IMG/VR virus record: IMGVR_UViG_3300011115_000316
Location: 1 to 61,312 of that record
Reading direction: 5' to 3' (one strand)
DNA length: 61,312 nucleotides
Origin: a virus
Shown: one piece after another, positions 34,876 to 37,547 of the stretch
Layout of the letters: every line of letters starts with the position of its first letter
Position numbering within the stretch: position 1 is the stretch's first letter
Program-made: the position numbers and the translations under genes
Notes under the pieces: generated by a model
Database searches by the model: none
Seen by the model: the letters and a program-made list of their open reading frames with translations, nothing else
Told to the model about the DNA's origin: nothing

Positions 34876-35115
34876 ATGACCCAAGTGAACGGCAAGCGTG
34901 ACTACAAACACGCATACAAACTGCAGAAGAAAACCGGAGAGACGCAAGACCAACTCGAGCGTCAGAAGGCTCGGGGGATCTACGACAAACAGAACGTAGA
35001 CCGAGCCGGCAAAGACATCGACCACATCAAGCCCATGCGGGCCGGCGGCAAGACTGCCCCCGGCAACCTGCGGCTGCGTGGGAAGAAGGCTAACGAAGCG
35101 GACAACGGCAAGTGA
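34876..35115 (+). CDS. Small HNH-type nuclease-like protein (79 aa)
   Basis: MTQVNGKRDYKHAYKLQKKT, GETQDQLERQKARGIYDK and VDRAGKDIDHIKPMRAGGKT followed by APGNLRLRGKKANEADNG. DHIKPxxxGGxxxxxNLRLRxxxxNxxxxN is the HNH beta-beta-alpha metal core; the N-terminal part is basic and helical. Such minimal proteins occur in phage replication operons. It overlaps the helicase start (TGATG). Confidence 0.78.
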   Translation: MTQVNGKRDYKHAYKLQKKTGETQDQLERQKARGIYDKQNVDRAGKDIDHIKPMRAGGKTAPGNLRLRGKKANEADNGK

Positions 35116-37547
35116 TGGAAATCCTAGACAACAAGGCGGTGCTCATACGCACCCGCAACCCGGGCAAGTACACCGTCATACCCAAGAGCCGCATCGTTGA
35201 AGATCATGGCAACGGCGGCTACACGGTGGCGGTGTACTGGGGGCTCGATGAGATGCGGGTTCTCAAGAACCTCGGCGTCAAGAACACCCCGTCGCCTATC
35301 TCACGCAAGTACGACTGGCCCGGGCGCTACATCCCGATGACGCACCAGATCGAGACCGCATCGTTCCTCACCCTGCACAGGCGGGCGTTCTGTTTCAACG
35401 AACCCGGCACCGGCAAGACGCTCAGCGCACTGTGGGCGGCGGACTACCTGATGAAGCGCGGTGAGGTGCGCAGGGTGCTGATCCTGTGCCCTCTTTCAAT
35501 CATGCACGCTGCATGGGTAGGCGACATCAACAACAGCGTGATGCACCGCAGCACGGTGGTCGCACACCACAGCAGCGCTATGCGCCGTGTCGAGCTTGTT
35601 CAAGGTGACTACGAGCTAGTGATTGCCAACTATGAGGGGCTCAACCTGATCGCTGATGAGGTGAACAATGACGGGCGATTTGATCTGGTCATCGTCGATG
35701 AGTGCTTCGTGGCGGGCACGTTGGTGGCTACTCCACAAGGCAGACGGCCCATAGAACAACTGCAAGCCGGAGATACGGTCTTGACATCTGCTGGAGTAAT
35801 GGGTATAAACAGGCTTGTACGCAATACCGCTAAACAGATTGTTGAGGTCAAACTTGGAACTGGTAAAACAATCCGATGCACTCCAGAGCACCCATTCTTT
35901 ACTGACGCCGGTTGGGTGTGTGCCAAAAATCTTGCGGGAAGACGGCTTATATCTGGTGTTGAGTTGTCCTGTCTGCGGGCAAGAATATCGCCGCGAGCAT
36001 TCCCGGGTGCAGTGGGGTATGGCGAACAACCGACCCCTTGGGTTGACCTGCTCAAAATCTTGCGCACGGAAGAGGTGGCACTTACTGAACCCCAACAAGA
36101 GTTACTTCTGCAACATGCCGCCCGAGCACCGGGGCAAGCCCATCAAACCGAAGTCGGACGAACACAAAGCCAAGCTGTCGGCAGCGGCGAAAGCCAAGGG
36201 GCACAAACCGCAGGTACGGGGCGGCAATGGTACGGGGATGACGCCGATGGAGTGGTTGATTTCCGAGGTCTTACCTGTGGGTTGGGTATGGAACTTCCCC
36301 GTAGCGTTGGGAAAGAGGCAGCAAGGCTTTCCTACGAACTACAAGCTCGACTTCGCGTGGCCGCACCTCAAGATGGGGTTGGAAGTGGGTGGAAGCAGCC
36401 ACACGGCAACAGTGCGCCAGATGCAAGATCGGAAGAAGGAAGCCAAACTGGCGGAGCTCGGGTGGTCAGTGTTTCGCATCACGAACAAGGAAGTGCAGTC
36501 CCTGTCTACAACCTTGAAATTGAAGGCACACCTAACTACTTTGTTGGCGACCATTGGCTAGTGCATAACTGCAACGCGTACAAGAACCCCAGCACACAGC
36601 GCTGGAAGTCTCTGGCTAAGATCATCCGCCCGCACACCTACCTGTGGATGATGACGGGCACGCCGGCCTCACAGACGCCCGTGGATGCGTACGGCCTCGC
36701 CAAGTTGGTCAACCCATCGGGGGTACCGAAGTTTGCAACCGCATGGCGCGACAAGGTGATGAACAAGATCACCACGTTCAAGTGGGCACCCAAGCCCGAG
36801 TCCAAGCGGCTGGTGCACGAGGTGCTGCAGCCGGCCATACGTTTCACCAAAGCGCAGTGCCTTGACCTTCCTCCGGTTGTGACTGTTACGCGGGATGTGC
36901 CGCTGTCGCCACAGCAGGCCAAGTACTACAAGCTGCTCAAAGAACAGATGCTGTTCCAGACAGCCGGCGAGACGATCTCGGCGGTCAATGCGGGTGTCGC
37001 CGTCAGTAAGCTCCTGCAGATATCTGCCGGCGCTGCGTACACAGACGACAAAGAGACAGTGGAGTTCGACGCCGCACCGCGCATGAAGGTGCTGATGGAG
37101 ATCCTCGATGAGACTGACCGCAAGGTCATCATCTTCGCCATGTTCCGCTCCAGCATTACCACGATCACCGCGCACTTGACCAAGAACCACATCCCCAACG
37201 CACAGATTCATGGGGATGTGAACGCCACCAAGCGGGGGCAGATCATCAACGACTTTCAGAACACCGACGCCGTGCGCGTGCTGGTCATGCAGCCGCAAGC
37301 TACGGCACACGGGATCACGCTGACTGCCGCCGACACGGTTGTGTTCTATGGGCCGTTGATGAGCGTTGAGATGTACCTGCAGTGCATTGCGCGGGCTGAC
37401 CGCAAGGGGCAGAACTCTGATAAAGTGACCGTCGTGCACATCCAAAGCAGCCCAATTGAGGTGCGGATGTTCAAGGCAATGGCAGGCAAGGTTGGTGAGC
37501 ATGCGTTGCTTGTCGGGCTGTTCAACCAAGAGATTAAAAATAATTGA
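35115..37547 (+). CDS. SNF2/DEAD-like helicase interrupted by an intein (810 aa precursor)
   Basis: Extein: MTHQIETASFLTLHRRAFCF, Walker A NEPGTGKT (about residues 96-103), motif Ia VLILCPLSIMHAAW, motif II VIVDEC(NAYKN), motif III MTGTPASQTP, and C-terminal helicase motifs VIIFAMFRSS, QIHGDVNATKRGQIINDF, VLVMQPQATAHGITLTAAD and YLQCIARADRKGQNSDKV. This is the SNF2-type phage helicase found beside RecB-like nucleases. The intein sits inside motif II, directly after VIVDE and before the Cys of CNAYKN. After splicing about 521 residues remain. ATG at 35115 overlaps the upstream stop; a GTG at 35112 is possible. Confidence 0.9.
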   Translation: MEILDNKAVLIRTRNPGKYTVIPKSRIVEDHGNGGYTVAVYWGLDEMRVLKNLGVKNTPSPISRKYDWPGRYIPMTHQIETASFLTLHRRAFCFNEPGTGKTLSALWAADYLMKRGEVRRVLILCPLSIMHAAWVGDINNSVMHRSTVVAHHSSAMRRVELVQGDYELVIANYEGLNLIADEVNNDGRFDLVIVDECFVAGTLVATPQGRRPIEQLQAGDTVLTSAGVMGINRLVRNTAKQIVEVKLGTGKTIRCTPEHPFFTDAGWVCAKNLAGRRLISGVELSCLRARISPRAFPGAVGYGEQPTPWVDLLKILRTEEVALTEPQQELLLQHAARAPGQAHQTEVGRTQSQAVGSGESQGAQTAGTGRQWYGDDADGVVDFRGLTCGLGMELPRSVGKEAARLSYELQARLRVAAPQDGVGSGWKQPHGNSAPDARSEEGSQTGGARVVSVSHHEQGSAVPVYNLEIEGTPNYFVGDHWLVHNCNAYKNPSTQRWKSLAKIIRPHTYLWMMTGTPASQTPVDAYGLAKLVNPSGVPKFATAWRDKVMNKITTFKWAPKPESKRLVHEVLQPAIRFTKAQCLDLPPVVTVTRDVPLSPQQAKYYKLLKEQMLFQTAGETISAVNAGVAVSKLLQISAGAAYTDDKETVEFDAAPRMKVLMEILDETDRKVIIFAMFRSSITTITAHLTKNHIPNAQIHGDVNATKRGQIINDFQNTDAVRVLVMQPQATAHGITLTAADTVVFYGPLMSVEMYLQCIARADRKGQNSDKVTVVHIQSSPIEVRMFKAMAGKVGEHALLVGLFNQEIKNN
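35703..36569 (+). mobile_element. Intein in motif II of the helicase (289 aa)
   Basis: Starts with Cys1 in CFVAGTLVATPQGRRPIEQL, followed by QAGDTVLT (block A), TPEHPFFTDAGW (block B, with the TxxH motif) and ends VPVYNLEIEGTPNYFVGDHW then LVHN followed by +1 Cys (blocks F and G, penultimate His and terminal Asn). All residues needed for splicing are present. The central 170 or so residues of this frame (from about GVELSCLRARISPR to SHHEQG) have no recognisable domain. A nuclease is encoded there in the +1 frame. Confidence 0.93.
35815..36561 (+). CDS. Vsr/DUF559-type homing endonuclease nested out of frame in the intein (up to 248 aa)
   Basis: In the +1 frame relative to the helicase: a zinc-finger-like CPVCGQEYRR...C.KSC, a NUMOD-type segment EHKAKLSAAAKAKGHK, then NYKLDFAWPHLKMGLEVGGS followed by SHTATVRQMQDRKKEAKLAE and LGWSVFRITNKEV. 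This is the PD-(D/E)xK pattern of Vsr/DUF559 nucleases (LDF, LEVGGxxH, D..R...L..LGW.V.R). Start uncertain: TTG 35815, TTG 35854 (GAGG six bases upstream), GTG 35956, or ATG 36019 (would remove the first CxxC). It stops eight bases before the intein end. The frame 0 text over the same bases remains open. Confidence 0.75.
   Translation: MYAIPLNRLLRSNLELVKQSDALQSTHSLLTPVGCVPKILREDGLYLVLSCPVCGQEYRREHSRVQWGMANNRPLGLTCSKSCARKRWHLLNPNKSYFCNMPPEHRGKPIKPKSDEHKAKLSAAAKAKGHKPQVRGGNGTGMTPMEWLISEVLPVGWVWNFPVALGKRQQGFPTNYKLDFAWPHLKMGLEVGGSSHTATVRQMQDRKKEAKLAELGWSVFRITNKEVQSLSTTLKLKAHLTTLLATIG

Follow-up and report, generated by a model that had tools for sequence, protein, structure and literature searches.

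Homing endonucleases are described as translated either free, from an intron, or fused with an intein (Stoddard 2014, PMC3943268). The stretch of viral DNA studied here (61,312 nucleotides, IMG/VR record IMGVR_UViG_3300011115_000316; hereafter the window) contains a helicase gene that raises the question of whether an intein can carry its nuclease as a gene of its own, written over the intein in another reading frame. A first-pass annotation, made from the letters alone, had proposed a homing endonuclease out of frame inside an intein that is itself fully open. We asked whether this layout is real and how it relates to known mobile elements.

The host helicase, its intein and the overprinted nuclease

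The host gene and the parts of the intein read in its frame are the following.

35112-37547, + strand: host gene, a SNF2-type phage DNA helicase; a single 811-aa ORF (before splicing), open across the intein
35703-36569, + strand: intein in the host frame, 289 codons, with C1 ... TPEH ... HN, a Hint fold and zero-gap empty alleles
35703-35948, + strand: Hint splicing domain, N-terminal part, codons 1-82, under intein-frame selection
35949-36470, + strand: intein-frame linker, the frame-0 reading of the nuclease core, mostly predicted to be disordered
36471-36569, + strand: Hint splicing domain, C-terminal part, where both frames are read save for the last 8 bases

The helicase ORF is unbroken and has profile matches to SNF2-rel_dom (2e-19), Helicase_C (2e-15) and the DNA helicase family phrog_62 (6e-99). 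The intein lies directly behind the DE of the helicase's Walker B-like motif. As claimed in the first-pass annotation, the splicing blocks in the helicase frame are complete: Cys1 in CFVAGT, TPEH as block B, and LVHN followed by Cys, whose codon (36570-36572) is directly 3' of the intein. The residues of a class-1 intein are thus present (nucleophile at position 1, [TS]xxH in block B, terminal His-Asn and Cys at +1). The Pfam Intein_splicing match, at 41.1 bits, lies above the cut-off of 35.8, and the NCBIfam models of the intein N and C termini likewise exceed theirs. The AlphaFold2 model of the intein frame folds with confidence as Hint over residues 1-90 and 250-289, with a mostly disordered middle between them; in a structural comparison its top matches are inteins and intein-like domains (best 2lwy, E 5e-7). 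Profiles, structure model and the empty alleles described below agree on a Hint fold inserted precisely in frame, and from the conserved residues we infer that the window intein is splicing-competent.

The centre of the helicase frame lacks a nuclease domain, as had been noted: profile searches found no nuclease similarity in the frame-0 middle of the intein. A degraded in-frame nuclease was rejected on this ground and on the mostly disordered model. Within the otherwise disordered linker, two helices of fair confidence are modelled at intein residues 113-123 and 204-219 (36039-36071 and 36312-36359), and may be genuine or a side effect of conservation in the nuclease frame. A small 79-aa ORF at 34876-35115 overlaps the helicase start and contains a DHIKPMRAGG...NLR segment that resembles an HNH motif.

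Over the same bases, the +1 frame holds the following features.

35844-35847, + strand: Shine-Dalgarno-like GAGG from the intein codons GAG GTC; Glu48 is GAG in 22/22 relatives with Glu
35854-35856, + strand: proposed nuclease start TTG; TTG in 20/24 window-type sequences, ATG two codons downstream in the other 4
35854-36561, + strand: overprinted, predicted homing endonuclease, +1 frame, 235 aa and stop TAG, identified by its DUF559 match, frame selection and relatives
35965-36063, + strand: nuclease zinc finger, Cys38/41/66/70 (C-x2-C ... C-x3-C), identified by motif and relatives
36244-36486, + strand: predicted nuclease catalytic region, E133, D166, E177-x-[D179]-G-x-x-H183, D192, K195, from model, profile and alignment
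36388-36390, + strand: GGT (Gly179) instead of an Asp codon; Asp in 167/169 relatives (LEVDGxSH motif)

The +1 ORF opens at 35809/35815 and ends in the TAG at 36559-36561, eight bases before the last base of the intein (36569). It matches Pfam DUF559 (PF04480) at 29.2 bits against a curated cut-off of 20.6, so that the annotation of a Vsr/DUF559-type nuclease stopping just short of the intein end is borne out. Two of its figures needed revision: the stretch open in both frames spans about 235-250 codons rather than about 165, and the GC content of the intein is 55% rather than ~58 percent.

The AlphaFold2 model of the nuclease (mean pLDDT 73.8) was matched by Foldseek to the catalytic domain of I-Bth0305I (PDB 3r3p) with probability 1.00 and a target-normalised TM of 0.70, at an E of only 0.035, and also to NGO0050. 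With the nuclease sequence profile, the E-value was 7e-4 for NGO0050 (PDB 3hrl) and 0.17 for 3r3p. Four residues of the catalytic region (D166, H183, D192 and K195) are invariant in 169/169 sequences and E177 is present in 168/169, while at the position that aligns with the first E of EDxHD, 65/169 have E and 104/169 have Q. By sequence and model, the nuclease probably works like, and belongs with, the EDxHD/Vsr-like homing endonucleases. The window's own copy, with its D179G change, may be impaired or dead. The intein-frame residue stays Gly (GGG) despite this change, so decay of the nuclease may be under way in the window copy without harm to the intein.

Relatives and selection in two frames

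A first scan with the nuclease protein yielded 31 loci at 50-86% identity, 30 of which cover the whole intein. In 31/31 window-type sequences (including the window, and down to about 44% identity) both frames are open from the proposed nuclease start, and the third frame has 9-18 stops. In this set, +1-frame stops are confined to intein codons 51 and below and to a single terminal position that the sequences share. Wider scans, of viral contigs and one genome per prokaryote species, were run with nuclease alignments and left the intein frame free. They gave 192 distinct nuclease sequences, of which 168 lie between two detectable Hint halves; five are partial cases that agree with the +1 layout, 18 are bacterial DUF559 proteins without Hint, and one is the free-standing gene L243 described below. 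The comparison of homologue frames suggested in the first-pass annotation had the same outcome throughout: in 168/168 the nuclease is +1 to both Hint halves, with HintN and HintC in one uninterrupted ORF. Among these 168 relatives we found no in-frame nuclease, no split intein and no interrupted intein frame. The intein lengths are all multiples of three. Class-1 residues are conserved as well, with Cys1 in 168/168, [TS]xxH in 166/168, and a terminus of HN or SN ahead of Cys.

Cultured phages carry the same arrangement. Searches with tblastn matched Corynebacterium phage phi673, Pseudomonas phage MR14 and Vibrio phages CP-T1, Rostov M3, 1.088.O, K391, 104E43.1, 159E43-1b and others; mycobacteriophage records gave no match to these nucleases. 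In eight cultured-phage records (including phi673, MR14 and CP-T1) the helicase is one CDS across the intein and the nuclease lies at +1, and nuclease annotation is absent from all eight. Judged from these comparisons, the element is of a real, widespread kind of mobile element with hundreds of relatives. Surveys of inteins that read only the host frame will label these inteins 'nuclease-free'.

Several loci have additional features. A free-standing gene for the same nuclease type (L243:3338-3979; zinc finger, GGNG, DxExDGxxH) has no Hint domain nearby; it may be a source of the intein-borne form or have escaped from it. In L014, a second Hint-like N-terminal segment (L014:1732-1959, 36% identity) lies about 3 kb upstream of the intein in the helicase and suggests another intein in a neighbouring gene. 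The host ORF of one A6 member also has an in-frame LAGLIDADG_3 domain. Two A6-member host helicases carry a fused N6_N4 methylase domain, like the helicase-methylase pairing reported for Pacc40 gp60.

Selection was assessed by codon position in 24 non-redundant sequences (median nucleotide identity 64%). In intein codons 1-80 the most variable position is intein position 3. In codons ~100-260 it is intein position 1, which is nuclease position 3, and at the C-terminal end it is intein position 3 again. This pattern indicates that selection is in the intein frame at both ends and in the nuclease frame in the middle. We also counted changes by their effect in both frames, using uncorrected p-distances. 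In the nuclease core, dNN/dNS was 0.27 (0.24-0.29), pointing to strong constraint on the nuclease. The corresponding dNN/dSN of 0.60 (0.53-0.67) points to weak constraint on the intein-frame linker, although ratios near 0.6-0.8 should not be over-read, as the unselected-frame control in HintN gave 0.78, not 1. For HintN ahead of the nuclease start, dNN/dSN was 0.18.

The constraint of the intein frame on the nuclease can be read directly from its codons. Nuclease codons ending in T are absent before AAN, AGN or GAN (0/10,019, as compared to 25.6% elsewhere; 168 loci) because these would write a stop in the intein frame. The zero follows from the unbroken intein frame, and no locus was excluded for a broken frame. 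Tyr before Lys, for example, is encoded by TAC in 191/191 cases in the nuclease, as compared to 188/536 elsewhere. When synonymous nuclease codons were re-dealt, a mean of 5.1 intein-frame stops appeared, and the probability of none was 0.001 for the window alone; the same procedure gave averages of 4 to 8 intein-frame stops in the relatives. The first-pass annotation had put the chance of two such open frames at under one in a hundred, and this improbability is upheld. Chance overlap of the frames was rejected on the re-dealing test, the double-open relatives and the codon avoidance. The suggestion that two overlapping proteins may be under selection likewise gains support, from the opposite codon-position signatures, the core dNN/dNS of 0.27 and the complete avoidance of stop-making synonymous codons. 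The family is among the clearer cases of long overlapping phage genes, with a codon-level test that is directly readable.

Proposed nuclease start, probable mobility and rival explanations

In the window group, six bases separate the GAGG from the TTG. No start codon is common to all 24 aligned window-type sequences, and the pattern of TTG at codon 51 or ATG at codon 53 was recognised only after the alignment columns had been read. Frame-0 Leu51 is CTT in 20/21 sequences, and many neighbouring codons vary synonymously. The TTG start of the window cluster is a weaker initiator than usual. In the wider family, 166/167 sequences have a start codon, most often ATG, in the interval from the last +1 stop to the zinc finger. 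A Shine-Dalgarno (SD)-like motif precedes 52/112 of the upstream ATGs as compared to 45/555 of the ATGs inside the core, and 94/247 of the candidate starts as compared to 125/1,440 of the codons inside the nuclease. The pattern of SD-like motifs and start codons therefore favours internal initiation.

The insertion site is also shared. At 157/168 loci the intein is directly behind 'DE' of a DE-type, Walker B-like motif, in host proteins that include SNF2 helicases, ResIII/DEAD helicases, clamp-loader/DnaX ATPases and several proteins without identification. Among 54 sampled hosts, 37 had ResIII and 10 were clamp-loader/DnaX. In the nuclease tree, SNF2-hosted sequences form one well-supported group and most clamp-loader-hosted sequences another. 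Helicases that lack the intein but match the window at 94-95% identity in the flanks align with zero gap across the insertion point, and carry Ala (GCG/GCC) where intein carriers have Cys. Loci L002 and L005 have exteins that are 58% and nucleases that are 84% identical, while for L002 and L011 the exteins are 96% and the nucleases 74% identical. In these pairs the histories of intein and host are discordant, as recent movement would leave them. Across 84 loci, distances of Hint, nuclease and host correlated weakly with one another (nuclease-Hint partial 0.20), for which the short Hint alignment is the probable reason.

Very probably, then, the locus is a contiguous splicing intein at the Walker B-like motif of the helicase, with an overprinted, independently translated EDxHD/Vsr-like (DUF559) zinc-finger endonuclease in its middle. 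Pointing to this are two frames that are both open and selected, precise empty sites, discordant histories and a conserved start region. Nuclease translation, cleavage, homing and intein splicing are steps that we infer from these features. Ribosomes in the helicase frame would make helicase-intein-helicase, reading the nuclease DNA as a floppy linker that sits in the loop where inteins usually carry a nuclease domain, and the intein would excise itself from the helicase. Initiation by other ribosomes within the intein, at the SD-preceded TTG or ATG just before the zinc finger, would yield the nuclease as a free protein. Its target would be the DE^A site of alleles that lack the intein; once cut, these would be repaired by copying in the intein, and with it the Cys required at +1.

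Alternatively, programmed +1 frameshifting of the ribosome might produce the nuclease as a HintN-nuclease fusion. Slippage to +1 is known at CTT codons (prfB). The window cluster has a conserved GAGGTC AAA CTT G, whose CTT-G context could permit such slippage, an upstream SD can stimulate slipping, and the nuclease frame is always +1. We nevertheless consider frameshifting unlikely: in the four relatives whose codon 51 offers no TTG, an ATG stands at codon 53, and slippage leaves unexplained why most of the wider family has an ATG shortly before the zinc finger, often at SD-like spacing. In L111 the +1 frame opens just one codon ahead of its ATG, and no slippery site common to the subfamilies was seen.

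Far less probable again is the possibility, raised in the first-pass annotation, of two compensating frameshifts, or of assembly errors, in an ancestral single-frame intein-nuclease. Nothing beyond the layout itself speaks for it, and a frameshift or assembly artefact is refuted by the same +1 layout in 168 distinct relatives and eight cultured-phage records, with no nuclease in frame and with every intein length a multiple of three. We give equally little credence to a self-splicing group I/II intron, or a non-spliced insertion of the ShiLan type, as the carrier of the nuclease, with the intein reading incidental. Introns elsewhere do carry EDxHD/Vsr nucleases (PMC12350094), and HNH insertions that are out of frame and lack a splicing domain are known (PMC11855218). 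Here, however, a complete and selected Hint domain is present (C1, [TS]xxH, HN and Cys+1 in nearly all relatives; Hint-fold model), and the intron reading was rejected as no intron RNA family matched 35500-36800 in Rfam at E up to 1.

Comparison with known systems

Large inteins of the PI-SceI type share with the window's overprinted intein the Hint domain, the class-1 residues, insertion at an active-site motif, a nuclease between the Hint parts and precise empty sites. They differ in that their nuclease is an in-frame domain, whereas here the nuclease has a start and stop of its own in the +1 frame, and a linker is all that the intein protein has at that place. A fused endonuclease domain was found neither in the window nor in any of the 168 classifiable relatives. 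Three control phage inteins (Cane17 portal, Aeromonas PS1 thymidylate synthase and Microcystis Mic1 TerL) have in-frame LAGLIDADG-type motifs, and none of the three has a long hidden ORF. The family thereby breaks the division of homing endonucleases into those free from introns and those fused to inteins (PMC3943268).

The predicted catalytic fold and the D, E, H, D, K pattern resemble those of I-Bth0305I (PDB 3r3p) and NGO0050 (PDB 3hrl). I-Bth0305I comes from a mobile intron and 3hrl is a stand-alone protein; compared with both, the window nuclease family adds zinc fingers and a conserved GGNG segment.

A nuclease of probably the same broad fold, likewise made apart from the intein, occurs in fractured genes. 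As reportedly described by Dassa et al. in 2009, the intein in these is split, and a free gene for an EDxHD/Vsr-like endonuclease separates its halves. In fractured genes the intein is split, whereas here it is contiguous and the nuclease gene overlaps it; HintN and HintC, which would lie in separate ORFs in a fractured gene, are in the same ORF in 168/168. We give even odds to a further reading: that the family is an ancient class of mobile inteins in its own right, whose endonuclease came in as an overlapping gene of its own and stayed locked at +1, that these elements spread among non-homologous ATPases at DE-type motifs, and that the class is a missing link to the fractured genes. If so, a stop in the host frame would turn the element into a split intein around a free nuclease gene. 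The family offers a concrete route by which nucleases could enter inteins without fusion, and bears on the origin of split inteins.

The first-pass annotation knew of no described intein of this kind. This stands in that no contiguous intein with an overlapping nuclease gene was found in the literature searched, which did not reach the preprint 10.1101/2025.01.02.630785 ('Actinobacteriophage Inteins ... Non-Canonical Architecture'). It does not stand for hidden nucleases in general: a 2025 paper (PMC11855218) described out-of-frame HNH insertions that lack a splicing domain, namely the ShiLan domain and the hidden insertions of Pacc40, both in phage DNA methylases. The ShiLan HNH nuclease occupies the third frame, starts at GTG and has no detectable RBS (PMC11855218). 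These insertions are the closest precedent: they too stay open in the host frame while carrying a homing-type endonuclease in another frame. They have no intein or intron splicing domain, whereas the host frame of the window has a full Hint domain and thus a full intein, overprinted by a probable EDxHD/Vsr-like nuclease in the +1 frame and accompanied by SD-like sites.
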